This document shows, piece after piece, positions 1 through 14,164 of a stretch of 14,164 nt of DNA; positions within the stretch are counted from its first letter, which is position 1, and the number at the start of each line of letters is the position of its first letter. The stretch lies in assembly GCA_030019105.1 (NCBI GenBank), contig JASEGY010000048.1, positions 1 through 14,164 on the forward strand. The letters run 5' to 3'. Position numbers and translations under genes: made by a program. The stretch is from a bacterium (GTDB lineage: Bacteria; UBA9089; JASEGY01). Under the pieces are notes generated by a model. The model was not told the origin of the DNA, did not search any database, and worked only from the letters and a program-made list of their open reading frames with translations.

Positions 1-3000
1 AAGAAACCTCTGTTGGAGCTACGATCCTGACAGTCACCCCGGAGGAGCTCGTCTGGGTATCTCCACTGATTTTGCTGGTTATCGAAGTCCCCTCCGGATT
101 TATGCAAAGCACATCTCCCTCGAAGGTCTTAATTCCACTCTCATTAGCCGGGATCTGAACCCGATAGGTGGTAGTCTGATCAAGTATTCCCTCGGAGTCA
201 TAGAAAAGCCACTTCACTTCACCAGTTGAAGGATTAAAGCTAACAGAGTCTGGAGTCGAAGAGATTGCAGTCCAGTTAGCAGGGATATATTCCCTGATAA
301 TGATCTCATTAGGTTTATTAGACTCATTGACATCAATGGTCAGGTTTACCTCTATCGTAGTATCGGAGGAATAACTTTGAGGCAAGGTTCTGGTAACTGT
401 AACCTGAGGTTCAGAGGAAACTCCTTCTCCACTTAAAGACACATCCAATGCCGGTGTATCAGGGTTATTGGATGCGATGAAGAGACTCGCGCTCTTTAAC
501 CCTGCTGATACAGGAGAGAATACCACATCAACTGGACAGGTAGCTGATGGTGCCAAGGTCTGTCCTGAGTAGTTGTTGTTCTGTATGCTGAACGCAGAAG
601 CATCTGTGCCTGTGAGGGTAATTGTGCCTATCACAAGATCTGCATCGCCTGTGTTTGAGATGGTAAAAGTCTGGGGATCTGATGAGTTGCCAATATTTAC
701 ACTACCAAAGTTATGGGAAGCTGGAGAAACCGAAATATCAGGAGCAGATATACCACCAATAGCATAAAGATAACCATCAAAATTTCCGATATATATTGTT
801 CCATCAGCACCTATCGCAGGAGAGGAAAATAAATCACCACCCGTCTGGTACCGCCACTTAAGTGTGCCATTGGAATTTATGGCATAAAGATAATTATCAT
901 CACTTCCAATATATATTGTCCCATTAGCGTCTATTGCAGGAGAAGAATCTACATGACCACCGGTTTGATATCGCCATCTACGTGTGCCATCAGGATTTAT
1001 GGCATAAAGATAATTGTCTTGACTACCAACATATATTGTCCCATCAGAACCTATCGCGGGGGAGGATCCTACACCACCTCCCGTTTGATACCGCCATTTA
1101 CGTGTGCCATCAGGATTTATGGCATAAAGATAATTGTTCCGAGTTCCAACATATATTGTCCCATCAGAGCCTATCGCGGGAGAGGAGCCTACACTACCCC
1201 CGGTTTGATACCGCCATTTACGTGTGCCATCAAGATTTATGGCATAAAGATAATTATCCCAGCTTCCAACATATATTGTGCCATCATCGCCTATCGCGGG
1301 AGACGAAAAGCCACCCCCGGTTTGATATCGCCATTTACGTGTGCCATCAGGATTTATAGCGTAAAGATAACCATCAGCACTTCCAACATATATTACCCCA
1401 TCATCACTTATTGCTGGGGATGATGTAACACCACCCCCCGCTTGATACCGCCATTTACGTGTGCCATCGGAATTTATAGCATAAAGGTAATTATCACTAC
1501 TTCCAACATATATTGTACCTTCGCTACCTATCGCAGGAGAAGAAATTACATCATCCCCAGTTTGATACCGCCATTTAAGAATTCCATCAGGATTGACAGC
1601 ATAAAGATAATTATCATTACTTCCAACATATATTGTACCTTCACTACCTATCGCAAGAGAAGAAAATACATCACTACCAGTTTGATATTGCCATTTAAGT
1701 GTAGCATCTTTACCCACATAAGGACTTCTCCTTGTATGTCTTAAATCATGTCCAAATATCGGCCACGGCCCATTATCCAAGCCACCAGAGCTTTCCGTAT
1801 ACTCAATAACCAGGTACGGCTTATATGACGAACCCGATTCAGACGACCAGATATTAACAAATTCATGCTGAGTGGGAGTAGTCTGACTGATATCTCTGCT
1901 GCTTCTAAACCCAATTTTTGTTGCTCCTCCCTTGTTTATCCAGCTCAGGCCCGTAGCGTTAAATGTAATACTGTTTATTCCATTATTATCCTGCCAATTG
2001 CTTGAATTAAGCGAACCGCCGGAAGTTGTTCCAAAACTCCCAAAATCTGAGAGAGCAAGAGAGCTAACCGATGCCTGATTGCTTTGCACAATTTCAATAT
2101 CAAAATCTGTATAGGAATAGTCAGCATCATAACCATATAGATACAAGGTCGCACCGGTTATGGTGCAATTGTCTGGCAGCAAGCCGGTGTCAAATGGGAT
2201 CGAAGCTCTGTAAACATAATATTCCCCGGAAGCTGCCTTATCCTGACCCACAATAAGCATCGTGGTATAAGCAGGGTTGCTAACTTCATTGGCTGTCTGA
2301 GCACTTTGTAGGGTAAGATAGTCATTAAAACCGTGATTAAAGATAAATCCATCGTTAACAGTGCCGTTGCCTGAAAAGAATATTTTTTGATGTGTTTCAG
2401 GATTAGAGCTTACTTCCAGCATAACTGCATTAGAATTAGGTGATTCCGCAGTATTGTGATAAGCCTGCACAAAATAGGTATATGAATGTCCTGCTACAAC
2501 AGTATCATCTACAAAACTGGTCGCATCCGGCGCTAAAACCGCAATTCTTTCGGTGGGGCTTCCCGTCCGAAAAACGGATATCCCGTTGGCTAAAACTCGA
2601 TTTTCCCAGGAAAGGTTCACAGCCCCATCCTGGCTTACCTCTGCCGTCAGGTTAGTCGGGTGCGTGTTGGAGACAAATTCAGTGGTCTGGCCATCGGATT
2701 GTATGTATCCGCCTTCAAAATCCTGGCATTCTCCTCCTGAGCAAGAATACCGGTCAGAGGTCGGAAACCCGACCCAGGTGGCATATCCCTGTCTGCCCCA
2801 TTCCTGATAAATCAGCCCGGAAACTGCATATGAATTCCCGGAATGCACCTGGATAGACCCGCCTTCAAAGAGCTGATAGTATCCCTCTGTCCCAAAACCG
2901 GAGGTAGTCTGTATTCGATCACTTATCGGAAAACCAAGTGCGCCCGCAGCGTAAGAAACAGAACTCCATTTAGCGTAAACTTCGCCGTAGACGGCAAAGG

Positions 3001-4399
3001 GATGAAGAGTGTTCAACTGTATGGAGCCGCCTTCAAAAATCTGGTAAGTCCCGGAGGTATTGAAAGAAGAGGTTGTCTCTATCCTGTTGTCTGTTGGAAA
3101 ACCCAGCAGGCTATCTGCGTAGCCCAGGTCACCCCACTTCTCGTAGAGTTTGCCGTACAGAGCATAAGCCTCTCCTGCCTGCGAACCACTGTTTATGTAC
3201 TGGATGGAGCCGTATTTAAAGAGCTGATAATAGCCTTCTACACCACTCAAGACAGATGTGGTTGATTCAACTGTCCCTGTTGCTGTGCCGAGTTGGGCTG
3301 AGTTTGCCTCCCAAACCGATATAAACTTTTGGCTTATATCTCCATTGGGCGCTCCTTCGCCAACCGCTATCTGGCTGTCACCCTGAACAATCATGCTAAT
3401 GCGTACCGGCTTAAACTGGGTGTCCCTGTCTGGTACCCAGCCACCGCTGACATGGTAGGGATAGAAATATTCCTTATATTCGCCAGGTGTAGTCGGGGCC
3501 TGTATTGAAAAATGAAAAGTGGCTATTCCCCCCTTTTCGATTGTGGTTTCATTCGGATAACAGACCTTCCAATCAGAATCCACCCAGGTGTTGTGGGCAA
3601 AGGAAGAATGACCAGTGGGCGGCGTTTGGGTGGGATCGATAGAATCTTCAGAGACGGCAAGATAAATGTTGGTAGGATTGGACGGATCATTGTTCCAGGG
3701 TTCTCGCCCCTCATTCTTCCACTTTATGGTTATAGTTACAGCCTCACCAGGTGCAAGGGTGATAGGGTCTTCAGCGCTTTTGCTGTTGGAGTGATCCGCA
3801 TACGACAGGGTGTATTCCCAGCCCTTTGAAAAGGCATAGACAGACTTGCCCTTCAGAGAAAAAAAGTGCTTTCTTACTTTATAATCCGGATAGCTAACAC
3901 AACTTGAACACCAATTAGAATCCAAAACCCATATTTTCTCAGGGTTGCCTTGAGCATCCAATACGGGACGACCGAGTGCAATCATGGTGTGAGGTATGGA
4001 AGTATATAGAATATCTCCAGGCACCACATCTTTGATATTTTTGGAAAAGTTGTCATAATATCCCCCACAACTTCCGTTTATACAATCATTATTGGGGATA
4101 TCATGATTTCCAGTCGCTTCACAAACAATAATCTCAACAAATTGCTTACACCACCCCGGATCAAAGCCAGCATCGTAGCATTCCGGTTTTGAATAATGGA
4201 TGATCTTGTCAAGCTCTTTAAGCTGATGGACGTTGCTTGTATTCTTGCCCTCTCTCTCAATAGTGAAAGAACCGTCAAAATTTAAAGATTGGGCGATCTG
4301 CAAAATGTCGTAATTGTAATTTCTGGCCTCTGCCAGAGAAGAAAAAATAAGAAAAAATATCACTCCAAAAATCACGATACCTGATTTAGAAACCTTCAT
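1..4399 (-). CDS. Giant secreted modular surface protein, CHAP-like amidase plus LGFP and beta-propeller (3' end beyond window)
   Basis: One open frame runs from ATG at 4399 to the window edge: 1466 complete codons with no stop, so the C-terminus is missing. GGGAGGAG (4405-4412) fixes the start, and a signal peptide follows (hydrophobic 8-22, ending LAEA). Domains in order: a CHAP/NlpC-like cysteine amidase (about 75-195) with candidate catalytic Cys84 (WCKQFV), His137 (PHTMIALG) and Asn162 (DSNW), plus possible disulfide cysteines including a CSSC; an NBR1-Ig-like domain (about 200-340); four LGFP-type repeats (about 385-570; FEGGSIQ, LGFP, GFPTSDR); fibronectin III (about 577-662); a DNRLRE/CBM96-like beta-sandwich (about 670-870); a PQQ-type propeller with eight 39-40-residue blades (about 875-1215; WRYQTGG, SSPAIG, GTIYVGS, NYLYAINPDG); an ASH/choice-of-anchor-D domain (about 1217-1325); then another Ig-like domain. 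LGFP and CHAP modules are known for cell-wall binding and peptidoglycan cleavage. Wall or surface action is inference. An anchor or secretion tail may lie off-window. Longer in-frame ATGs (4420, 4471) lack a good ribosome site. Confidence 0.9.
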   Translation of the reverse strand, partial: MKVSKSGIVIFGVIFFLIFSSLAEARNYNYDILQIAQSLNFDGSFTIEREGKNTSNVHQLKELDKIIHYSKPECYDAGFDPGWCKQFVEIIVCEATGNHDIPNNDCINGSCGGYYDNFSKNIKDVVPGDILYTSIPHTMIALGRPVLDAQGNPEKIWVLDSNWCSSCVSYPDYKVRKHFFSLKGKSVYAFSKGWEYTLSYADHSNSKSAEDPITLAPGEAVTITIKWKNEGREPWNNDPSNPTNIYLAVSEDSIDPTQTPPTGHSSFAHNTWVDSDWKVCYPNETTIEKGGIATFHFSIQAPTTPGEYKEYFYPYHVSGGWVPDRDTQFKPVRISMIVQGDSQIAVGEGAPNGDISQKFISVWEANSAQLGTATGTVESTTSVLSGVEGYYQLFKYGSIQYINSGSQAGEAYALYGKLYEKWGDLGYADSLLGFPTDNRIETTSSFNTSGTYQIFEGGSIQLNTLHPFAVYGEVYAKWSSVSYAAGALGFPISDRIQTTSGFGTEGYYQLFEGGSIQVHSGNSYAVSGLIYQEWGRQGYATWVGFPTSDRYSCSGGECQDFEGGYIQSDGQTTEFVSNTHPTNLTAEVSQDGAVNLSWENRVLANGISVFRTGSPTERIAVLAPDATSFVDDTVVAGHSYTYFVQAYHNTAESPNSNAVMLEVSSNPETHQKIFFSGNGTVNDGFIFNHGFNDYLTLQSAQTANEVSNPAYTTMLIVGQDKAASGEYYVYRASIPFDTGLLPDNCTITGATLYLYGYDADYSYTDFDIEIVQSNQASVSSLALSDFGSFGTTSGGSLNSSNWQDNNGINSITFNATGLSWINKGGATKIGFRSSRDISQTTPTQHEFVNIWSSESGSSYKPYLVIEYTESSGGLDNGPWPIFGHDLRHTRRSPYVGKDATLKWQYQTGSDVFSSLAIGSEGTIYVGSNDNYLYAVNPDGILKWRYQTGDDVISSPAIGSEGTIYVGSSDNYLYAINSDGTRKWRYQAGGGVTSSPAISDDGVIYVGSADGYLYAINPDGTRKWRYQTGGGFSSPAIGDDGTIYVGSWDNYLYAINLDGTRKWRYQTGGSVGSSPAIGSDGTIYVGTRNNYLYAINPDGTRKWRYQTGGGVGSSPAIGSDGTIYVGSQDNYLYAINPDGTRRWRYQTGGHVDSSPAIDANGTIYIGSDDNYLYAINSNGTLKWRYQTGGDLFSSPAIGADGTIYIGNFDGYLYAIGGISAPDISVSPASHNFGSVNIGNSSDPQTFTISNTGDADLVIGTITLTGTDASAFSIQNNNYSGQTLAPSATCPVDVVFSPVSAGLKSASLFIASNNPDTPALDVSLSGEGVSSEPQVTVTRTLPQSYSSDTTIEVNLTIDVNESNKPNEIIIREYIPANWTAISSTPDSVSFNPSTGEVKWLFYDSEGILDQTTTYRVQIPANESGIKTFEGDVLCINPEGTSITSKISGDTQTSSSGVTVRIVAPTEVS
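762..1708 (-). repeat. 120-bp tandem repeat encoding propeller blades
   Basis: Eight repeat boundaries lie at plus-strand positions 841, 961, 1081, 1201, 1318, 1438, 1558 and 1678. The period is exactly 120 bp except one 117-bp unit (1201-1317), which lost one codon in frame. Each unit encodes one blade of the propeller in the giant protein. The central units (961-1317) look roughly 85-90% identical as DNA by eye. The most constant parts encode IYVGS and YLYAINPDGT. The outer units are more diverged. Such similarity suggests recent duplication or gene conversion between blades. Confidence 0.93.
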
Positions 4400-4420
4400 C
4401 TTGTCTCCTCCCTTTCTCAT

Positions 4421-4498
4421 TTCGGATTTCGGATTTTGGATTGCAGCATCTTTTATTACAAACTCCTTCATTACGGATTTCGGATTGCAGATTACGGT
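4421..4498. repeat. Intergenic heptamer repeats (TTCGGAT type)
   Basis: Two clusters of a 7-bp unit lie in the 141-nt gap before the giant gene. At 4421-4447 the heptamers read TTCGGAT, TTCGGAT, TTTGGAT, TGCAGCA. At 4472-4498 they read TACGGAT, TTCGGAT, TGCAGAT, TACGGTA. The clusters also share a longer core, CGGATT followed closely by GGATTGCAG. Short heptamer repeats of this kind occur between genes in several bacterial groups and usually have no known function. The gap shows no convincing terminator or promoter, so whether the giant gene is co-transcribed with the genes upstream is open. Confidence 0.6.
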
Positions 4499-4540: not shown

Positions 4541-6367
4541 TCAGAATCTTAGCTGATAATTGAGAGCTATCTGCTTTTCCTTGAGGTTGTAGTCAAGGGA
4601 GAGCCTGTTTAGTTCCTCTTTTAGTCGGTTAAGTTCTTGTTTGTCTTGTTTGATGCCGTTTTCTATGAAGCTTCCTTTTGTGTACTTTATAATATAAGGT
4701 ATACCGCCCAGGGCCAAAAAACTACCCCCTATTATTCGACACATCTTCTCTCGCAAAGCAGTCTCTTCTTCCGCAGCCTTTTTTGCCTCTTCACTTTCAT
4801 CTTCTGGTTCTGTTGGGGAAGGAATAAAGCCTATTCCAAGAGTGAGAATTCCTGCAAAAAGAGATCCTCCTTGTATAGGCGAAGGCTTTCGCCAGTTAGG
4901 ATCATATTTACTTTCCAAACTTGCCAGATGAGATTCTTTTTGGGAGATCAATCTAACCAATTCATCCTTTCTGTCCTCTGTTCTTTTAAACTCTCTTACT
5001 TCCTTCCTTTCTGTAACTATTCTCTCGCCAAGTCCTTTCTCCATCGCAACAGTAGCCACACTCTCCACATCTATCAGACTGACGAGAAGTTGCGCCTTAT
5101 AAGCCACCTGATTTTTCTCTAACTTCTCTGATGCCTGGGTGAGCTTTCCATAGATAAAGGCATCTATGCCCCGACTCTCACCTTTTTTAGCCATGGTCTG
5201 TTTGTCTAATACCCCTTCTTTGGTCAACTGTATTTCCTCTTTGAATGCTTCAAGACTCTCTCTGTCCACCACTTCCAGGGATAAGTTTTCTACCATCCTG
5301 GCGATCATCTTGTCAACCACAGCCCGGTCATCGATCCTTTTTTCAGTCGTCTCATCAACAAATTGAAGCAAGGAAACCCTTTTGACATCAAGTCCGGATT
5401 CGGCCTCTTTGAGATTATCCACCAAATCCAAAACCGCCCGATCCACACCTGTTTCAAGATAGTCTTCAGTCAAAGGAACTTCCTTTGCCCAAACCAGTAT
5501 TCCCCGCTCCACATCGACCATCTTAAGAACAAGCGAGGGATTATTTTTGTGAAGGATAGGATTTTCATAGATTGCGCCGTAAATAAAGGCATTGATCCCG
5601 TATCCCTTGCCAAGTTCTGCGGCTGTCTCTTGATCTACCCAAAGGTAGTGCCTCTCTGCCAACTCCTTTTCCTTGTAAAGCTCTTCGATATTTCCCCGGT
5701 CAATCACAGTAAGCCCTGTCTCCCTGACCAATTGAGCAGTCAGTTTATCCACGACAAAAGAGTGGTTCAGTTTTATGCCGGTGTTGTTTGAGATATTCCA
5801 GAGGGCAATCCTTTCTATCCCTGCTGCCTTCAATCTAACTTCTGCCTCTTTTACCGAAGAAGAGATCGCATCTGCTGCCATCTTGAAAGGGACATCTTCC
5901 CTGCCAAGGTTTATTTCCAGTGTCCAGGCAAGGGATTGGCGCTCTAAGTCAAGGAGCTTCAGGATGAGGATTGGAGACCCTTCTTCAGCTTGATAAACTC
6001 TGCCAACAAGAATTCCATCTATCCCCTTGATCCCCCCATATTGATTGGCCTTCTTTTGATCAAAGTAACCCGATTCTTTTTCATACTCAATCTCTTCTAT
6101 CAGTTCTTCAAACAGGCCCCTCTCTACAACCTGAAACCGGCCGTCATTTACCAGCTCATAGGTTAATATCTCACTCAGTTCTTCAGTATCAACTTTCCCT
6201 GTTTCGTCTTGGATATTCAAGATACCAAGGTGTTTCAGGTCAGGGTCTTTGACCGTCTCCACCATAGATGAAACAGCATTCTTTGCCATCTCCTCCAGAT
6301 TCACAGTTGCCCAGCAGGGAAAAGATGTAGCAACCAATGCAAGTGTCAAAATTACCTTTTTTAGCAT
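4541..6367 (-). CDS. Secreted protein with three tandem CsgG/LpoB-like repeats and C-terminal hydrophobic/coiled-coil region
   Basis: 608 residues. The start is ATG 6367, preceded by GGAGG at 6 nt; the upstream gene's TAA overlaps this site (TAAGGAGG). A signal peptide covers residues 1 to about 20 (PCWA end); there is no standard lipobox. Three CsgG/FlgO/LpoB-type alpha-beta repeats lie at about 45-178, 183-325 and 328-450. They carry the family pattern: a ..VVDR..L motif, an acidic helix, then G.DAFIYG and a strand ending in (L/I)VDVE(R/S). The tail differs from other family members: an RKDELV..SQKES helix (462-487), a hydrophobic Gly-rich segment (499-517), an acidic Glu/Ala stretch (519-541), a second hydrophobic Gly-rich segment (545-561), a Leu-rich coiled coil (574-600) and a final strand ending NYQLRF. 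It is a close paralogue of the 1009-residue protein encoded upstream in the same cluster. Periplasmic, membrane-associated scaffold is inference; the exact family (CsgG, LpoB or FlgO) cannot be settled by eye. Confidence 0.88.
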   Translation of the reverse strand: MLKKVILTLALVATSFPCWATVNLEEMAKNAVSSMVETVKDPDLKHLGILNIQDETGKVDTEELSEILTYELVNDGRFQVVERGLFEELIEEIEYEKESGYFDQKKANQYGGIKGIDGILVGRVYQAEEGSPILILKLLDLERQSLAWTLEINLGREDVPFKMAADAISSSVKEAEVRLKAAGIERIALWNISNNTGIKLNHSFVVDKLTAQLVRETGLTVIDRGNIEELYKEKELAERHYLWVDQETAAELGKGYGINAFIYGAIYENPILHKNNPSLVLKMVDVERGILVWAKEVPLTEDYLETGVDRAVLDLVDNLKEAESGLDVKRVSLLQFVDETTEKRIDDRAVVDKMIARMVENLSLEVVDRESLEAFKEEIQLTKEGVLDKQTMAKKGESRGIDAFIYGKLTQASEKLEKNQVAYKAQLLVSLIDVESVATVAMEKGLGERIVTERKEVREFKRTEDRKDELVRLISQKESHLASLESKYDPNWRKPSPIQGGSLFAGILTLGIGFIPSPTEPEDESEEAKKAAEEETALREKMCRIIGGSFLALGGIPYIIKYTKGSFIENGIKQDKQELNRLKEELNRLSLDYNLKEKQIALNYQLRF

Positions 6368-6378
6368 ATCAATCCTCC

Positions 6379-7143
6379 TTAAAAACTTATGGTCAAGCCA
6401 GCCTTTATGGTCAGGCCGCCTAAATCAATGCTGCTGTACTCGCGCCATTCAGATGGAATTTTTTCATATTCCTTTTCACCAACTTCTCTTTCTAAGTCCG
6501 CAAGAGAACTGTAATAGGTGTATCCCGCCTTGCCGTTTAAGGCCAAAAAGTCGGTCAGATTTAGTCTCAAACCTGCAAATCCTTGAAGACCCCAACCAAT
6601 ATCCACTGCGTCTTCAGAGAGAGAATAGCGTCCACCACCTTCATCTTTTATGTATCTCTGGCCTCCAAGACGGGCAATCAATGCTCCAACAGAGCCGTAC
6701 GTCTCAAAACGCTCTGAGATAAAATCTTTTGGTTTTAGAATGTAGTTAATGTCGACTTGATACGCTGTTTTTATTCCATCAAGAGAGATCATTGCAATCC
6801 CGACTTCTGCGTAATTAAGAGGCCTTTTTGGTTGATATGCTATTCGTATGGCTGAGGCAGATTCTATGGGTGTAGGAGTAACTTTTTCCCCTCCCCATGT
6901 TTCCTTTCTGCACATCTCTTTGAATTTCCAGCCGATTTCTGAGCTTACAGACAAAGGGTAATACTCAACAGTTATGCTATTGCGAGAAGCGCGCGCCTTT
7001 TCTCTTTCTGCTTTTTTCACCTCTTCTTTTGCCTCAAAATAGTCCTCAGTCTCCACCTTTTCCATATCATCCTCATCTGCCCAGCCATGAAAAGGAAAGA
7101 AGATGGCCGCCAGAACAAGTATTACGACAAAGCTTTTCTTCAT
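6379..7143 (-). CDS. Small outer-membrane beta-barrel-like protein
   Basis: 254 residues. The start is ATG 7143, preceded by GGAGG at 7 nt. Its first four bases overlap the stop of the preceding gene (ATGA), so translation is probably coupled. A signal peptide (1-22, ending HGWA) is followed by a short charged helix (about 25-55: MEKVETEDYFEAKEEVKKAE). From about 56 onward the chain is a run of alternating, aromatic-rich strands with turns (SITVEYYPL, SAIRIAYQ, YAEVGIAMISL, TAYQVDINYIL, FETYGSVGALIARL, VDIGWGLQGFAGLRLNL, ALNGKAGYTYYSSL). It ends GLTIKAGLTISF, with the terminal Phe typical of substrates of the BAM machinery. This fits an 8- to 10-strand outer-membrane barrel of the OmpA/OmpW-like fold. 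I do not recognise a specific family. Its place between the two tandem-repeat proteins suggests that it is their outer-membrane partner (inference). Confidence 0.85.
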   Translation of the reverse strand: MKKSFVVILVLAAIFFPFHGWADEDDMEKVETEDYFEAKEEVKKAEREKARASRNSITVEYYPLSVSSEIGWKFKEMCRKETWGGEKVTPTPIESASAIRIAYQPKRPLNYAEVGIAMISLDGIKTAYQVDINYILKPKDFISERFETYGSVGALIARLGGQRYIKDEGGGRYSLSEDAVDIGWGLQGFAGLRLNLTDFLALNGKAGYTYYSSLADLEREVGEKEYEKIPSEWREYSSIDLGGLTIKAGLTISF

Positions 7144-10100
7144 TGTGAAACCTCCTTTAATTTTTTATCTATCTTATCTGCCAGTTCAGGCAGAGTCTCT
7201 TCTGAAAGTTCCTTAATGATATCCTCAAGATACAGGTTCTTGATATCCTCTGTCTTCATATACATGCTCCCGTCCTGGTAGAAACGGAGACCTGGCGATC
7301 CAACACCAAGTACCATGCCTCCAAGCACCCCAAAGGAGTTTGTAAAGGAAAAGGACAAGCGAGATATTTTTTGGAGATTATGGGCTTCCAAAGAGTTCTT
7401 TCCCTCCAGGCTTATTTTTGTTAATCGGTTATCGGATTTGCTCGTAGCAGTAATAGAAACCTCACAAAGAAAGGATAGCCGCAAGTCTGCCATATCCTCA
7501 TTGACTCTCTTGAATCTCCAGGAATCATCCAGGACAGCCCTGATCTCGTCTACGAGATGTCCCTTGATTAATTCTCCGGCCTTTTTAGAATAGCTGCTGT
7601 TATAACTGCCTAAGTCTACCTTCACTTGAAGATAAGGGGCAACCAGTATTGGCCTTAATGCCTCTGTCACCAGCCTTCCCAGAGAAGAGTCAGGATTCAT
7701 ATCTACTGCCTTTTTTATTACCCGATACCCATTCTTCTCATCCTTTAGCCGAAAAAAGGAAAGACCAAGATGAAGCCAGGTCTTCTGAGAAACAAAACCA
7801 AGCTTTATGGCCTCCTCAAAAAATGAGATGGCCTTTTTATAATCCTTGTTTTGGTAATGGCTGATACCTTTCTCTGTCAGTTCCCTTGCCTTCTCTTCTT
7901 TCTTCCTCTCTTCTACAAACCGCCCCTCCTTGATTTCCTCCTCTGCCTTCTCCCTGACCATAGCCAGAACCTTTCCTGTTGCGATCTCGATCACCTTGGC
8001 AGAAATAGTGTAGGTGTTAACCACCTTGCTCCCCTTTATCTCTGACTCCTTCTTTACCTCTCCAGTTATAAAGGCATCTACACCATATCTCTTGCCCAGC
8101 TCCACGCTCTTCTCATCCAAAATTCCTTCTTTAGCCTTCTTTATCTCCTCTATCAGTAGCGTTAAGCTGCTTCTATCAATCAGAGAAAAACTGAAATTAT
8201 CCACCATCTTTGAGGTAAGCTTGTCGATGAGGATATCTTCCCCTATCTTTTCAGTTTTGTCCGTGAACTGTAAAAAGGCAGCGGTCTTTATGGGTTTGAG
8301 CTTATCCCCTTGCTCTTTAAGAAAGGCTATTACCTTCTCCATCCCTTCATCGATGCCGGTCTTTATGTAATCTTTTCCAAGGGGCATCTCCTTTGCCCAG
8401 ACCAGGTTGCCTTTCTCTAAATCAGCCATCTTCAGGATAAAAGAGGGGTTCTTCTCAAAACCAAAGGTATTGTCATAAAAACTGCCGTAGAGAAAGAGAT
8501 CGATCCCATACATCTGGCCAAGCTTCTTGGCGGTCTCCCTGTCGATTATCCCTTCTTTGGAATGACGCACCTCTGCCATCAGCTTCTCTAATTGGGATCG
8601 GTCGATCATCTTAAAGAGATCGGCCTTCATTAAGTTGACAGTGAGTTTGTCTATAATCAGATTCTCATCCACCTTTAGACTGCTTTTGTCTAATATCCTC
8701 CAGAACGAGACCTTCTTATCAGGACTGGCCTTTCTTTCCCGGGTGAGGAAGGAGGTAAGCTCTTCTGCCACAACATCTGTCTCTGTCTTGATTGACCTCT
8801 TATTAACAGGAATCTCAGCAGACCAGATCAGGATGCCCTTTTCTAAGTCAACCACCTTCACTATCAGGACAGGATTTGGATTGCCATCGGAAGGATTATT
8901 GTAAAAAGTTCCGTAGAGTACGCTGTCCATTCCATGCACCTTGCTCAATTTTGCCCTGGTCTCCGGGTCTATTAGTCCGGTCAGGCCCTCTTTCTGTTCC
9001 TTTAAAATTGTTTCTAAGTTGTCCCGATTGACTATCTTAACCTGGCGGCCCCTGGCCAAGTGAATATCAAATTGATCAACGATATGTTTGGGCTGAATAG
9101 AGAGCGAGGACTTATTGGCTATCTCCCAGACACCCATACTCTTTATCTTCAATCTATCCAGGTTTTCACTCAGGTCTTTGACAGCCTCAACAACAACACC
9201 TTCTGTCTCAGATAGGGGAAGGTTGATATTAAGACTCTTTCCCCAGACGATCTCTCCTTTATCTGAAGAAACCATCTTAAGCAGGATAGAAAGAGAATTG
9301 TCACTGACAATGGCACTGGTTATTTCTCCCAGGATAAAGCCCTTTATGCCATAGACATTCCCCAATTTCTTGATGGTTTCAGGATTGATTATGGAATGCT
9401 CCCTGCCTAAGCTATCGGTAAAGGTCTCCTTCCCAAGCCTGTATTCCTCAAACAGCTTCTTAAGATTGTTGCGGTCAACCACCTCTAAGTCAGATCTCAT
9501 TACCAGATTAGCGGTCAGTTTGTCTATCAGAAATCGCTCATTCACCTTTCTATGATAGGTATCATTTGAGATGTTCAGAATGGCTATCTTGTCTACACCT
9601 GCCTCTTTTATGAAGGAATCATGGGCTTTTATGTCCTCAATCGTTTTATCAACCATTTCATCAAGAAGATGGTCTTTGGAAGGGCTAAGCGGCAATTCCT
9701 TTGCCCAGACCAGGCGTTGTTTTTCTATATCGAGCATCCGCAAGATCAGGCATGGGTCACCTTCTCCTGTGACTCCTGTTGGGTAGACCTCTCCAAATAT
9801 GAGGCCATCTATGGGTTGAACCCTGCTGAACTCCTTGGTGGTCTCCTGATCAAAGTAATCAGAGATGTCAGAGGCGGTCTCAAGGTCTATCTCTTTTAAT
9901 GCACTGGCTAGGATATCCCTCTGGACAACCTTGAATCGTTTGGTGTTAACCAGGCAATAGGTTAGCTCATCCTTCAATTTGACCGTATTAACACTTTCTG
10001 TCGGGTCTTTGATATTCCAGATAGCAACACCTTTTAGGGAAGGGTCAGTGATTGTGGAGGCCAGATGCGAGATTGCCTCTTTGGCTATTTGTTCAATCTG

Positions 10101-10169
10101 TTCTGATGCTTTAACTCCTCCACCGAAAAGTAATAATCCTGCTGTAAGAATGAAAAGAAATTTCCTCAC
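7140..10169 (-). CDS. Periplasmic protein with five tandem CsgG/LpoB-like repeats, TPRs and a novel C-terminal domain
   Basis: 1009 residues. GTG start at 10169, immediately after the TAG of the upstream gene; GGAGG lies 10-11 nt upstream inside that gene. Signal peptide about 1-21 (VKA end), no lipobox. Five repeats of one alpha-beta fold sit at about 45-180, 190-335, 340-475, 485-618 and 625-745. Each has an ILIDKLT-type helix, a VVDR..L motif, a helix rich in Glu and Lys, (Y/H)G(I/V)DxFxxG and a strand ending in (V/A)DLEKG.(L/I)VW followed by A.E(I/M/L)P. This matches the CsgG/FlgO/LpoB superfamily. Two TPR-like units (about 762-829: ISHYQNKDYKKAISFFEEAI) and a unique C-terminal domain (about 840-1009, two strand-rich parts and a helical end) follow. 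Family members usually have one such domain per chain, so five is unusual. Likely a periplasmic scaffold or ring subunit under the outer membrane (inference). Confidence 0.9.
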   Translation of the reverse strand: MRKFLFILTAGLLLFGGGVKASEQIEQIAKEAISHLASTITDPSLKGVAIWNIKDPTESVNTVKLKDELTYCLVNTKRFKVVQRDILASALKEIDLETASDISDYFDQETTKEFSRVQPIDGLIFGEVYPTGVTGEGDPCLILRMLDIEKQRLVWAKELPLSPSKDHLLDEMVDKTIEDIKAHDSFIKEAGVDKIAILNISNDTYHRKVNERFLIDKLTANLVMRSDLEVVDRNNLKKLFEEYRLGKETFTDSLGREHSIINPETIKKLGNVYGIKGFILGEITSAIVSDNSLSILLKMVSSDKGEIVWGKSLNINLPLSETEGVVVEAVKDLSENLDRLKIKSMGVWEIANKSSLSIQPKHIVDQFDIHLARGRQVKIVNRDNLETILKEQKEGLTGLIDPETRAKLSKVHGMDSVLYGTFYNNPSDGNPNPVLIVKVVDLEKGILIWSAEIPVNKRSIKTETDVVAEELTSFLTRERKASPDKKVSFWRILDKSSLKVDENLIIDKLTVNLMKADLFKMIDRSQLEKLMAEVRHSKEGIIDRETAKKLGQMYGIDLFLYGSFYDNTFGFEKNPSFILKMADLEKGNLVWAKEMPLGKDYIKTGIDEGMEKVIAFLKEQGDKLKPIKTAAFLQFTDKTEKIGEDILIDKLTSKMVDNFSFSLIDRSSLTLLIEEIKKAKEGILDEKSVELGKRYGVDAFITGEVKKESEIKGSKVVNTYTISAKVIEIATGKVLAMVREKAEEEIKEGRFVEERKKEEKARELTEKGISHYQNKDYKKAISFFEEAIKLGFVSQKTWLHLGLSFFRLKDEKNGYRVIKKAVDMNPDSSLGRLVTEALRPILVAPYLQVKVDLGSYNSSYSKKAGELIKGHLVDEIRAVLDDSWRFKRVNEDMADLRLSFLCEVSITATSKSDNRLTKISLEGKNSLEAHNLQKISRLSFSFTNSFGVLGGMVLGVGSPGLRFYQDGSMYMKTEDIKNLYLEDIIKELSEETLPELADKIDKKLKEVSQ

Positions 10170-11549
10170 CTATCTTTCACCTCCACAAAGATAATCTGCC
10201 ATCAATGAGGCCGCCTTATTGAGGGCATCTGTGCCCGCCGATTCCATATCCAGCCCAAACCCAGCTACATCTGAAGCCTCTTTCTGAAAGATTACCTCTT
10301 GTTTGTTGAGATCAATTACTTTAAGTGAGCCAGAAGCAAAAGAGGAGAAGAGATCGTTCTCTAACTTAGCTCCCCTGCGGGTAAAGAAATTACCAGTAAT
10401 AATCGTATCTGCTAAGAGCTGCAGGGAGGCAAAATCTCCCTCCTTAAGTAACTCTTCTACTGCCTGCATAGATTCTCCTAATTCGCTTTGACCAACTATC
10501 TTCTGGCCTGACTCAACCAGCCTTGAGGAGAATTTAGCCTCCATAACTGCTCTGTCTGCCTTTTCTCCCAGGCTCTCACAGGAGATAGAGAGGACAATCT
10601 TTCCCAAGTCACGGGTGAGGTGAAACTCCACCTTTCTTTCGAAAAGAAGGTCAATCGCCTTTTGTATCTCTTTGGCATCCTTCTCTGACAGGTCGGAAAG
10701 GGAGAGTGAGAATGCTTCCTGGATATCTACAGCGGCCTCAATCACATTTATCAGCCCGGTAAGCTGAACAGGCTCTAAGATGCCCATCCCTGCTTGATTG
10801 GTTATTACCTTCTGACCAGAGCTAAATGTTATCGGCAGGTTTACAATAGGTGTCTTGCCACCTTCTGTCTGTAATGCTGCTCTTACTGTCAGTCGGGATA
10901 TCTCTTCTGATGCCTTCTGCAAATCTATTCTTTGAATGAGGCTTTCAATGCTGCTTAAAGCCCTGGTGCGGGAGGATTGATCAAAACCGATATTTGCCGA
11001 GCGTAGAGATGAAAGATAGGCTTGAAAGGCAGAGAGAACTTTGCCTTTTTCTTCTGCGGCCTTGCCTTCTGCGAGGTATCTCCTGGCAAGCTTAAGGTGC
11101 TCTTCTGTCTCTTGCTTAAGACGCTCCTGCTCCTTTTTTATGGCCTCTCTGGAATACTTGAGCCGCAGGGCAATGTCGTAACTCCTGTAGGCTTTACCAT
11201 ATCTTTCTTCTTCTCTCTCCTCGCATTTCCATTTGTCAATGTAAAGTCCTTCCAATAAGGGCTGCTTCCCTGTAACATCAATTTCAGCCTTTATTCTGGT
11301 TTTTAATTCTGTAACCAGAATCTCAACCTCCTTACTGGCCCTTGCCCCGAAGAAGGTGACAATGTTTGCGAGTGCATCTGCGGTAGCCAGCTTTGTTCCT
11401 TCTTCAAAGGAATCTGCGCCTCTGGCCATTCCTACAAAATACATGTACTGATTATCTTCGGTTGTTCTCAGGTTCTGCCAGTTCTCCTGGCATCCAGGGA
11501 TAACAGCGGCAACAAGCAATATAAACAGCAATGCTTTATTTGTGCCCAT
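10170..11549 (-). CDS. LPP20/FlgT-like lipoprotein with helical middle
   Basis: 459 residues. ATG 11549 is preceded by AGGAG at 7 nt. A lipoprotein signal ends at VIPGC, making Cys20 the likely lipidated residue; Pro at -2 is unusual. Residues about 34-135 resemble the LPP20/FlgT-N fold: YMYFVGMARGADS, then an Ala-rich helix (TKLATADALANIVTFFGARAS) and a strand pair. A charged helical stretch follows (about 134-220, EREAIKKEQ-like and AEEKGK...AFQAYLSSLRS), then a strand-rich segment with PIVNLPITFSSGQ (about 235-275). The C-terminal part (about 405-455) again shows strand, VIDL and a final Ala-rich helix (DALNKAASLMADYL), as in LPP20/LpoB folds. The next gene starts at the base after this stop, so the two are translated as a pair. 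Role inferred: outer-membrane-anchored partner of the tandem-repeat proteins. Confidence 0.86.
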   Translation of the reverse strand: MGTNKALLFILLVAAVIPGCQENWQNLRTTEDNQYMYFVGMARGADSFEEGTKLATADALANIVTFFGARASKEVEILVTELKTRIKAEIDVTGKQPLLEGLYIDKWKCEEREEERYGKAYRSYDIALRLKYSREAIKKEQERLKQETEEHLKLARRYLAEGKAAEEKGKVLSAFQAYLSSLRSANIGFDQSSRTRALSSIESLIQRIDLQKASEEISRLTVRAALQTEGGKTPIVNLPITFSSGQKVITNQAGMGILEPVQLTGLINVIEAAVDIQEAFSLSLSDLSEKDAKEIQKAIDLLFERKVEFHLTRDLGKIVLSISCESLGEKADRAVMEAKFSSRLVESGQKIVGQSELGESMQAVEELLKEGDFASLQLLADTIITGNFFTRRGAKLENDLFSSFASGSLKVIDLNKQEVIFQKEASDVAGFGLDMESAGTDALNKAASLMADYLCGGER

Positions 11550-11629: not shown

Positions 11630-12340
11630 TTATTCACCAGAAAATTTTTCATCCACTTCCTTGTCAATCTTATCCATTACATCCAGTTTGTCTTGGACTT
11701 CAGCCGAGATTGGTCCTGCCCTAAGCATTTTTGTTTCACTTTCGATTGCCCTTTTCAGTCCCCTCTTATACTCTTCCTCAGACATCTGCAAGAGGGCATA
11801 TATTCTGTAGCCAATATGCTCCACATTTGGATAATCCAACAACTTCACCAGTTCACAAGGAATTCTTTTCCTGACTGTCATGCCATGGACATTCACATTC
11901 TTAGCTGCTATTTTGCCAAGACCTTTTATGTATTGGGCAGTTCCTGCTCCAGTTGCCTCAGCTAATTTGTATGCCTTGGTTCCAGAAATGACAGCTTCGT
12001 ATGATTGGGCAATATCTACCGCTCCAAGCGCTTCAGCTCCTATTTGAGCAGCCGTGATATTGTCTGCATCTACATAATTTACAAAGTAAACATATCTTTC
12101 TGGAAGACCCATCTCCTTAGCCATTTCAGGAAGAATAGATCCTGCTTCGATCCATGCGGGAAGCTCTACTCCCCTGAGGGGCAGGCCTTTTGTTCTTCCA
12201 GGATACCAACCCTCTTTTTCTGACTCCTCCAGAACTGCCTTCTCTTTCACAACCTCTTTTATAACCTGCTGTTTCGCACAACCTGCGATCAGCATTCCTA
12301 TTGATGCCACAACTATCAAACCATAAATTGCCTGTCTCAT
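11630..12340 (-). CDS. LPP20-like outer-membrane lipoprotein
   Basis: 236 residues. I start it at ATG 12340, preceded by AGGAGGT (12347-12353) at 6 nt; an upstream in-frame TTG (12388) has no ribosome site. The lipoprotein signal (MRQAIYGLIVVAS...) ends in LIAGC, a good lipobox, so Cys21 is lipidated; Ala at +2 favours the outer membrane. A Lys/Glu-rich linker (22-45) leads to a domain beginning WYPG and LPAWIEAG, then YVYFVNYVDADNITAAQIGAEALGAV and repeated Ala-rich helices. This is the layout of LPP20-type lipoproteins (P.W, a core strand, then an Ala helix). The C-terminus is helical and acidic (MSEEEYKRGLKRA..., DVMDKIDKEVDEKF). FlgP of Vibrio and Campylobacter is in this family; no flagellar gene is seen here. 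The family call is tentative. Confidence 0.82.
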   Translation of the reverse strand: MRQAIYGLIVVASIGMLIAGCAKQQVIKEVVKEKAVLEESEKEGWYPGRTKGLPLRGVELPAWIEAGSILPEMAKEMGLPERYVYFVNYVDADNITAAQIGAEALGAVDIAQSYEAVISGTKAYKLAEATGAGTAQYIKGLGKIAAKNVNVHGMTVRKRIPCELVKLLDYPNVEHIGYRIYALLQMSEEEYKRGLKRAIESETKMLRAGPISAEVQDKLDVMDKIDKEVDEKFSGE

Positions 12341-12367
12341 CACAAGACCTCCTATTTTAGATTTAGT

Positions 12368-12385
12368 AAAGGCATTGCTGCCTTT
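12368..12385 (-). promoter_or_regulatory. Intercistronic hairpin with GNRA loop
   Basis: On the minus strand, AAAGGCA GCAA TGCCTTT forms a perfect 7-bp stem with a GCAA (GNRA) tetraloop. It lies in the 61-nt gap between the FlgO-PA14 gene and the first lipoprotein gene, 15 nt upstream of the AGGAGGT site. No T run follows, so it is not a terminator. It could mark a processing or stability site between a first and a second part of the transcript. Confidence 0.4.
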
Positions 12386-12401
12386 CAAAAGAACTTCTTT
12401 T

Positions 12402-13937
12402 TCACCTCCCTTTGGTTTTAAGATACGAGGAGGAAATCACCTCAAAATCATCTTTCCCTGGCTGCCGCCATAAAAGCTCTACTTTTGCCCAGCCGGCAAT
12501 CTCAAAGAACTCAACCTTGACTTGATGCCACTGCTTACCTTCAAGGAATAGATTTACCTTGTGATCGTTATAATTGTAAGGATGCCAGTAGCCTATGATA
12601 ATCTTGTTATCTATTAACAGCCTTACTCCATCATTATGCGCTATCCTGAAAAGATAGGTTCCTGTAATAGGGGCATAGAGCTTTCCTTCCCAGCTTACAC
12701 CAAAATAATCTGCTGAGATATTTGGAGCCGGAGAGCCTTCTCCCCAGTCAAAGTCTATTGAGTTATCTATTCGGACTGTGGTCGGTTCATCTGGCAGTGC
12801 CCCTGGATTATCGTTGAATGGGGCAAGGTTAAAGTATTCTCCCCTCAGACCTTCTCTTTCTCCTGCTGAGACCGGCTTCTCCTTCTCCGGTTTCCCTTTC
12901 TCTGGCAGGGTGGGAACAGAAGGAACAGAAATCTTCTCCTTTGCAATCCTGGTAGTAGCTGTAGCCGAGATAGCCCCGGTTTCTGCTGAAATTAAGCGGG
13001 CATTAACTCTTAAGAATTCGCCAAGGTCGGTTATTGTTCCGGTAATTATAGCTTCTACCCCAAGTATCTTGCCCAATCTTACGGCTGTTTCCGGGTCAAT
13101 AATAGTAGAAATCCCCAGATTTTGTTCTTTGAGGACTTCGTCTAAGAATTTCCTCTCTACAAGTTTAAATTTCCCTGTCTGGTGAAGTTTAGAAATAAGC
13201 TCATCTGATAGATAATCTCCTAATTCATCCACCTTGCTCTCGCTGTTTCTAAGGCCAATCACCGCAACTCTCTTCTTCTCTTCCTTGAGGATGTCCCAAG
13301 AAAGTTGGGTAGCCACAGAAGCAATCTTTATACCTAAATAATCCTCTGATTGAAGAGGGTCAGGTGTTTTGGCAGGCAGAAAGGACTCTTTCTTAATATC
13401 CATGATGCTTAACACAGCTTCATTCTTTACGACAGATACCTCAGAGGATGCAATTATTTCATTTGTGAAGGTATCGATCAACCTGACATTGACCTTGAAC
13501 TGTTCACCAAGGTCTGTAATCACACCCTTGCAAACTGCGTCAATACCTATCAACATCCCTGCTCTGGTCATAGAGGAAGAACTGGCCAGGTCGGAAAGGC
13601 TCAACCCTCTCTCTTTCAGGGTCTTTTGGAACAGAGCCTTTTCCATAACGGTAAGGTTCTTGTTTTGGGATAGCTTGGCGATCAGTTCTTCAGTCAGGAA
13701 TTTTCCAAATTTGGTGATATTCCCCTCATAATCAGTAAAATCAATTACCACTATCTCCATTCCTTCAGCCACATCTTTAGAAAGTTCTTGTGATAACTCC
13801 TCTACTGCTATATTTATCTCGACTCCATAGGCTGTATTTTTCTCCTCTTTCTTATCTACAGCAGTAGAAATATTTGGCAAGGCAAAAGTTGTTGACACCA
13901 AACAAAAGATAACCGTTAAGATTTTTCTTTTTAGCAA
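12402..13937 (-). CDS. Secreted FlgO/CsgG-like double-domain protein with C-terminal PA14 domain
   Basis: 511 residues. I choose TTG 13937 as the start: GGAGGAG (13945-13951) lies 7 nt before it, and a signal peptide follows directly (KRKILTVIFCLVSTTFAL, cut near STA, residue 26). The longer in-frame TTG at 14063 has no ribosome site and lies upstream of the proposed promoter -10. Two FlgO/CsgG-like domains occupy about 55-170 (VVIDFTDYEGN, LTEELIAKLSQ, GIDAVCKGVITDLG, VNVRLIDTFTNEIIAS) and about 222-332 (VAVIGLRNSES, LSDELISKL, LVERKFLDEVLKEQNLG, GVEAIITGTITDLG, VNARLISAETG). A Pro/Lys/Glu linker (about 337-360) precedes a PA14 domain (about 364-510: LRGEYFNLAPF, SWEGKLYAPITGTYLFRIAHNDGVRLLID, VKVEFFEIAGWAKVELLW). 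PA14 is a carbohydrate-binding beta-barrel in many adhesins and glycosidases. No lipobox is seen. First gene of the cluster. Confidence 0.9.
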   Translation of the reverse strand: MLKRKILTVIFCLVSTTFALPNISTAVDKKEEKNTAYGVEINIAVEELSQELSKDVAEGMEIVVIDFTDYEGNITKFGKFLTEELIAKLSQNKNLTVMEKALFQKTLKERGLSLSDLASSSSMTRAGMLIGIDAVCKGVITDLGEQFKVNVRLIDTFTNEIIASSEVSVVKNEAVLSIMDIKKESFLPAKTPDPLQSEDYLGIKIASVATQLSWDILKEEKKRVAVIGLRNSESKVDELGDYLSDELISKLHQTGKFKLVERKFLDEVLKEQNLGISTIIDPETAVRLGKILGVEAIITGTITDLGEFLRVNARLISAETGAISATATTRIAKEKISVPSVPTLPEKGKPEKEKPVSAGEREGLRGEYFNLAPFNDNPGALPDEPTTVRIDNSIDFDWGEGSPAPNISADYFGVSWEGKLYAPITGTYLFRIAHNDGVRLLIDNKIIIGYWHPYNYNDHKVNLFLEGKQWHQVKVEFFEIAGWAKVELLWRQPGKDDFEVISSSYLKTKGR

Positions 13938-13944
13938 TTTAAAT

Positions 13945-13951
13945 CTCCTCC
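13945..13951 (-). promoter_or_regulatory. Ribosome binding site that sets a TTG start
   Basis: GGAGGAG on the minus strand (within AAAGGAGGAG) lies 7 nt before the TTG at 13937. It decides the start of the FlgO-PA14 protein in place of the longer in-frame TTG at 14063. Confidence 0.8.
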
Positions 13952-13959
13952 TTTTTTTG

Positions 13960-13994
13960 ACACTCACTTCCACCCCGTAGGTGAAAGTGGGTGT
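13960..13994 (-). promoter_or_regulatory. 5' leader hairpin
   Basis: Between the promoter and the ribosome site, the minus strand holds two 15-nt arms (13980-13994 and 13960-13974), ACACCCACTTTCACC and GGTGGAAGTGAGTGT, with a 5-nt loop TACGG. The stem has one C-A mismatch and one G-T pair. It is followed by an A-rich run and then GGAGGAG, so it is not a terminator on this strand. A 5' mRNA stabiliser or a regulator of ribosome access are both possible. Confidence 0.55.
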
Positions 13995-14022
13995 ATCTCT
14001 TGGGCAAATCCAATTGTCTTTG

Positions 14023-14050
14023 ATTCTACCCCCCCCCCCGTAAATGTCAA
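14023..14050 (-). promoter_or_regulatory. Sigma70-like promoter with 11-G tract in the spacer
   Basis: On the minus strand a perfect -35 TTGACA (14045-14050) and a -10 TAGAAT (14023-14028, five of six consensus bases) are separated by 16 nt. That spacer is TTTAC followed by eleven G residues (14029-14039). Transcription would begin near 14017, giving an ~80-nt leader before the TTG start at 13937. Homopolymer tracts inside promoter spacers are a known phase-variation device (for example in Neisseria porA and opc): slipped replication changes the -35/-10 distance. Here 16 nt is near optimal, and 17 or 18 nt are one or two insertions away. Confidence 0.75.
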
Positions 14051-14164
14051 GTCTTTTTTTCAAAGAAGTAGGTAGAAGGCTATCGAGACCGTTTTGAAAT
14101 TGGGACTTCTATGATTTATGCTTGATTTTACTGGGCTTCAGCCGCAGGTGGCCGTCTGTATTGC
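14051..14164. other. Upstream region without a supported gene
   Basis: No coding frame with a ribosome site or family resemblance is seen here. The stretch just upstream of the -35 contains an A-run (GAAAAAAAGA on the minus strand) that could act like an UP element. The outer edge (14136-14158) is G+C-rich with only a short imperfect stem. Confidence 0.4.

Follow-up and report, generated by a model that had tools for sequence, protein, structure and literature searches.

A candidate porA-type promoter with a poly-G spacer, adjacent to a transposon end and upstream of a bacterial envelope gene cluster

Introduction

In Neisseria meningitidis, the porA promoter carries a poly-G tract between its -35 and -10 elements, for which the optimum spacing is 17 nt, as described in the excerpts of PMC7864442 drawn upon here (see also the excerpt of PMC2791445). 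In Neisseria gonorrhoeae, a poly-C tract lies between the -35 and -10 elements of fetA (excerpt of PMC5320596). A third case is tprL of Treponema pallidum, a gene for a putative outer membrane protein with a variable poly-G of 7-11 residues in its promoter region (excerpt of PMC7864442). Tracts of at least eight Gs are reported to switch genes in Campylobacter, where 5% of the tracts within open reading frames have C on the coding strand (excerpt of PMC6321876), and homopolymers in coding genes are treated in PMC2831843, likewise represented by an excerpt.

Here, we describe a site in which a run of 11 Gs fills most of the interval between two sigma-70-like hexamers. We propose, with a probability of roughly 0.65, that this is a sigma-70-type promoter of an envelope cluster headed by a CsgG/FlgO-PA14 gene, and that the length of its poly-G spacer is tuned by slippage in the manner of porA.

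Results

The window, meaning the whole stretch of DNA that was analyzed (14,164 nucleotides), is the entire contig C486 of genome G000, which totals 4.34 Mb in 1053 contigs. Read directly on the minus strand, positions 14051-14022 are C-TTGACA-TTTAC-G11-TAGAAT-C, comprising the following elements:

14045..14050, minus strand: -35 hexamer TTGACA, exact consensus
14029..14044, minus strand: 16-nt spacer, TTTAC (14044-14040) plus G11 (14039-14029)
14023..14028, minus strand: -10 hexamer TAGAAT, 5/6 to TATAAT

The sequence, the 16-nt spacer and the coordinates given in the initial annotation were all exact when re-read on the minus strand, and its statement that the window has no other G/C run of similar length holds, as the only others of at least 6 are three C6, the next longest. 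The hexamer pair agrees with the sigma-70 consensus, TTGACA/TATAAT, in 11 of its 12 bases and ranks first among seven sigma-70-like sites found in a scan of 12300-14164 at a threshold of 9/12, at which shuffles yield 3.1 (sd 1.6). TTGACA-N15-19-TANNNT matches twice in the window, compared to 0.56 expected, and at least two matches occurred in 24 of 200 shuffles. The hexamers alone are therefore weak evidence of a promoter. That the resemblance arose by chance could be argued from these same two matches; against this, the site is the best of the seven, precedes a ribosome-binding site and start codon, and is marked by the fixed spacing of a transposon described below, and we regard coincidence as the least credible account of it. 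Given that spacing and the downstream ribosome-binding site and start codon, the promoter proposed in the initial annotation is, to judge from its sequence context, very probably real.

The G11 tract ends at the -10 box, 85 nt 5' of the TTG start of a gene encoding a CsgG/FlgO+PA14 protein, the first of a cluster that continues to the end of the contig:

13960..13994, minus strand: strong hairpin in the presumed 5' leader, from folding of the leader stretch
13945..13951, minus strand: ribosome-binding site GGAGGAG, 7 nt 5' of the start codon
12402..13937, minus strand: gene 1, TTG start at 13937, 511 aa, CsgG/FlgO-type and PA14 domains
11630..12388, minus strand: gene 2, lipoprotein-like N-terminus by eye, without a Pfam family
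10170..11549, minus strand: gene 3, lipoprotein-like N-terminus by eye, no family above cut-off
7140..10169, minus strand: gene 4, 1009 aa, four LpoB-type stretches and TPR (Pfam LpoB 1e-37; TIGR02722 above cut-off)
6379..7143, minus strand: gene 5, 254 aa, signal-peptide-like N-terminus by eye, without a family
4541..6367, minus strand: gene 6, 608 aa, three LpoB-type stretches (Pfam LpoB 9e-28)
2..4471, minus strand: gene 7, incomplete at the contig end, with LGFP and PQQ-propeller repeats and an Ig-like domain

Searches with gene 1, run on the frame from 13934 and hence one residue shorter than the re-read TTG start, matched Pfam PA14 (4e-22), CsgG (5e-21) and FlgO (4e-20), and no NCBIfam family above cut-off. 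Its N-terminus is signal-peptide-like by eye. Three of the six further cluster genes are without a family above cut-off. Envelope-type Pfam domains in several of the genes bear out the earlier suggestion that they encode envelope or surface proteins, and an envelope function for the cluster is likely from these sequence matches. A surface or envelope product, as encoded behind porA-type promoters, is thus predicted here from the CsgG/FlgO, PA14, LpoB and LGFP domains. The shared strand and short gaps suggest that the genes are co-transcribed, and control of the whole cluster by the poly-G site would depend on such co-transcription. The stretch 13925-14016, which contains the presumed leader, folds at -27.5 kcal/mol (z -3.86), a value that none of 200 shuffles reached; a search of Rfam gave no match for it. 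Pairing in this fold extends to the TTG start codon, and translational control by the hairpin is possible.

In order to judge the tract itself, we compared run lengths in G000 with an order-0 estimate, taking a GC content of 0.45 from a 24-kb sample. Ten distinct G/C runs of at least 9 were found where ~9.7 are expected; at lengths of at least 11, a single run (of 11) compares to ~0.5 (0.24 to 1.0 for GC 0.42 to 0.48). These counts are close to the expectation from base composition and therefore the length of G11 is unremarkable; we rejected the idea that it is surprising by length alone. What is remarkable is its placement within the promoter spacer: TTGAC-N2-8-G8-N0-4-TANNNT has a single match in the 4.34 Mb, which is this promoter, and the reversed pattern has none. 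The lack of a second promoter of this pattern in G000 counts against a switch, as does the lack of a genome-wide excess of G tracts.

Relatives were examined for the same arrangement. Matches to the first protein occur in 17 of 19 genomes of the phylum, its own included, and are only partial and domain-level outside G000. This is also true of the same-genus genome, in which no comparable promoter was found, again counting against a switch. The promoter region was searched in 61 genomes, and within the phylum no match outside G000 covered the tract. A contig scan with the first protein gave one distant locus, in Candidatus Auribacterota. Relatives at 85% and 62% identity exist.

We surveyed 386 genomes from 326 genera, including the window's own, for promoter spacers containing homopolymers. 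Poly-G spacers occur in 28 of the 386 genomes, with 4 matches to the reversed pattern, and poly-C spacers in 8, with 7 matches to the reversed pattern (28 versus 8 genomes, Fisher p 0.0009). This favoring of G over C in promoter spacers is an unexplained strand preference. The 38 survey rows reduce to 36 poly-G places, since G029 and G386 each contain one place that was read twice, and 24 of these have a spacer of 15-18 nt, compared to 40% predicted by the pattern alone (p 0.001); the 15-nt reading was kept for G386, and its 10-nt reading would give 23/36 instead. TTGACA-G9-TATTGT in G014, with a spacer of 9 nt, was not counted as a promoter. Of 30 genomes from the phylum to which G029 belongs, 12 match the poly-G pattern (18 rows representing 15 distinct places; 1 match to the reversed pattern), and by eye the genes behind these loci (L028-L044) encode lipoproteins, PAS, GGDEF or chemotaxis-like sensors, and others. 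Of ten proteins encoded behind poly-G promoters in other genomes, L107 and L077 were scanned against Pfam; the rest were labeled as sensors or lipoproteins by eye. Among the loci pooled from the promoter-region search, the pattern scans and the survey, first genes look secreted or lipoprotein-like at 11 of 22 places with 15-18 nt spacers, by a crude signal test without a background rate. Poly-G promoter spacers therefore recur across bacteria above controls, a result in favor of slippage control.

A real promoter could nonetheless have an incidental poly-G spacer, the length of which may drift without being used as a switch. That a run of this length is close to the chance expectation in G000 fits this, as does the fact that no length variation is seen (in one assembly), and 16 nt is an ordinary working length for a spacer. 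However, the tract sits inside the spacer, the design recurs relative to controls, and surface-type genes lie downstream, and we consider an incidental spacer unlikely.

Length differences, which favor slippage control, were found at related promoters elsewhere. L032 (G067) and L034 (G073) are identical at 159 of 160 flanking bases and have 11 and 10 Gs, respectively. Genome G077 has two contig ends, L037 and L044, whose flanks agree and which carry 13 and 11 Gs, respectively. Within one genus, L066 (G358) and L067 (G225) have 8 versus 11 Gs and spacers of 14 versus 17 nt, and the genes behind them are 58% identical over 143 residues. All of these differences come from assemblies, and therefore homopolymer or sequencing errors are possible. 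The same concern applies to the window: homopolymers are error-prone, G000 is a single fragmented assembly of 1053 contigs, and the contig ends 125 bp beyond the tract, so that the true run length could differ and the assembled 11 imply no switch. Yet a miscounted run would still be a G-rich spacer between hexamers, and 16 nt is a plausible spacing, and we view an error of this kind as distinctly improbable.

G000 has further G tracts. At C185:4915-4924 (L146:1827-1925), a G10 begins seven codons past the lipobox cysteine of an open reading frame with a good ribosome-binding site; the assembled register stops translating at the G10 tract, and the remainder of a surface-type protein, ~480 codons that include CarboxypepD_reg and Ig/PKD-type domains, goes on in another register. 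This layout is possibly that of a translational contingency locus for a phase-variable lipoprotein, which would favor slippage control at the promoter as well, or else an assembly error. The fetched stretches of related genes in G003 and G008 (L148, L149) have no G run of at least 6 on either strand. A weak candidate is L005 (C242:4094-4103), with a G10 just 5' of an ATG, a -10-like sequence and, by eye, a poor -35. L007 and L142 (C254 and C300) are related stretches of the form ATATGA-G(n)-TCC-G(n)-AGACTAATAACTC, in which the two runs measure 10 and 8 versus 8 and 9, making them paralogous tracts of unequal length.

Immediately upstream of the promoter lies a repeat:

14085..14164, minus strand: right-type transposon end, with the terminal inverted repeat motif at 14085-14106; the element is cut off by the contig end
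14051..14084, minus strand: 34-bp gap between the transposon end and the -35 box, a spacing common to other copies

Copies of 14085-14164 are repeated within G000, mostly close to contig ends. The motif GTCCCAATTTCAAAACGGTCTC has 27 matches in G000 at up to 3 mismatches and none reversed, and inverted motif pairs occur at four loci, measuring 390, 401, 619 and 680 bp end to end (the pair at L093 has 6 mismatches at one end). Because of these inverted pairs, we interpret GTCCCAATTTCAAAACGGTCTC as the terminal inverted repeat of a mobile element. The alternative that the repeat is a regulatory site was rejected, because a mobile element accounts for copies that are almost identical, for breaks at contig ends and for the inverted ends. 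The copy at C497 is flanked on both sides by AGCGTAAG, an 8-bp target duplication, and the two copies for which both flanks could be compared, in G013 and G017, have no 8-bp duplication by eye.

An outward TTGAC is found 32, 33 or 34 bp from 15 of 28 ends in G000, G001 and G008, versus 1 in 2296 other flank positions. The count takes in 28 of 29 ends, as matching without overlaps skipped one of the two tandem C864 ends; ends in G013, G016, G017 and G018 are not part of it. When ends are sorted by ten bases inside the motif, a sorting done after the spacing had been noticed, TTGAC lies at 32-34 bp from 12 of 14 right-type ends, none of 7 left-type ends and 3 of the remaining 7, and the difference between right and left types means that the spacing rule is directional. 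The right-type exceptions are C631, with TTTACA at 34 bp, and a copy in G008. A -10-like hexamer (0-2 mismatches, 16-18 nt from TTGAC) accompanies 13 of the 15 obeying ends, the others being L109 and L020; the end at C100 obeys with TTGACT, and without a convincing -10. The loci of this spacing family are 14085-14164 together with L012, L015-L019, L021-L024, L103, L109 and L111. In G013 and G017, which belong to another family of the phylum and carry diverged repeats, one end each has TTGAC at 33 bp (L093, L100), and no other end listed for G013, G016, G017 and G018 has it at 32-34 bp.

The distance at the window is 34 bp, and therefore the element treats the poly-G promoter like ordinary promoters. 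On balance, we favor the view that this transposon family homes to sigma-70-type promoters, inserting in one orientation with its right end geneward, at 32-34 bp 5' of the -35 box. The cue would presumably be that box itself or RNA polymerase bound to the DNA. On this view the transposition machinery would have recognized a promoter in the poly-G site, and across the phylum copies of the element would naturally flag where promoters lie. This fixed directional spacing is more surprising and novel than the poly-G promoter. An outward promoter of the transposon might alternatively drive the cluster, leaving the poly-G site as a relic. The transposon end does lie directly upstream, but its visible 80 bp contain no minus-strand site of at least 9/12, the rest of the element being outside the contig, and we hold this alternative to be very remote.

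Only fragments of a transposase were found, with no complete gene, and these broken pieces gave no match to a DDE transposase domain; one has a zinc ribbon weakly like that of ISL3 at E 0.041, below cut-off and so a hint, not a classification. We take ISL3-family insertion sequences to be the nearest comparison. The possible likeness would consist of the 8-bp target duplication at one copy, the inverted terminal repeats and that sub-cut-off zinc ribbon; unlike that family, the element here inserts directionally 32-34 bp 5' of TTGAC, and its transposase is known from pieces. Narrow searches of open-access literature listings showed no precedent for a promoter-homing transposon, which is weak evidence of novelty.

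Discussion

If the poly-G promoter is indeed tuned by slippage, the G11 run would gain and lose Gs through slipped-strand mispairing, and the spacer, 16 nt as assembled, would shift about the usual 17-nt optimum. Gene expression might thereby rise, fall or be shut off in a reversible and heritable manner, as is the case for porA in Neisseria. Our analysis shows the anatomy of the site, the gene behind it, the recurrence of the design in other bacteria and unequal G counts in near-identical promoters of other genomes; variation of this tract, its transcriptional effect and the co-transcription of the cluster are what we infer. That the spacer is 16 rather than 17 nt counts against a tuned promoter.

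Should this reading be true, poly-G slippage promoters would be a recurring device across bacterial families, beyond a few pathogens, and the as yet unexplained bias toward G rather than C on the non-template strand would be open to testing. If the homing is true, we would be dealing with a bacterial element whose insertion sites are picked beside RNA polymerase targets, and target choice of this kind could be tested directly.

How does the locus compare with known systems? As at porA in the excerpts cited, a poly-G lies between the -35 and -10 elements, at a spacing near 17 nt and in front of a surface protein gene, here a predicted one. A homopolymer of at least 8 separates the hexamers (G11), and the 16-nt spacer is close enough to the 17-nt optimum for repeats gained or lost to bring it there. 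Unlike porA, for which the same excerpts have length variation and its effect demonstrated, the site here is a candidate by its sequence anatomy, and the first gene encodes a CsgG/FlgO-PA14 protein of an uncultured lineage. By anatomy the site would work like porA, strict membership in that class resting on observed variation. The arrangement is also like that of fetA, as excerpted, in having a G/C homopolymer between the -35 and -10 elements; unlike the poly-C of fetA, G is on the non-template strand here, which is also the commoner kind in our survey. Like the site described here, tprL has a poly-G in its promoter region, and its product is a putative outer membrane protein; unlike the G11 run, the tprL tract does not, in the excerpted account, sit in a clear -35/-10 spacer, and its variation has been measured. 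Finally, the G preference of Campylobacter tracts, as given in the excerpt of that work, parallels the preference for poly-G in our survey of promoters.
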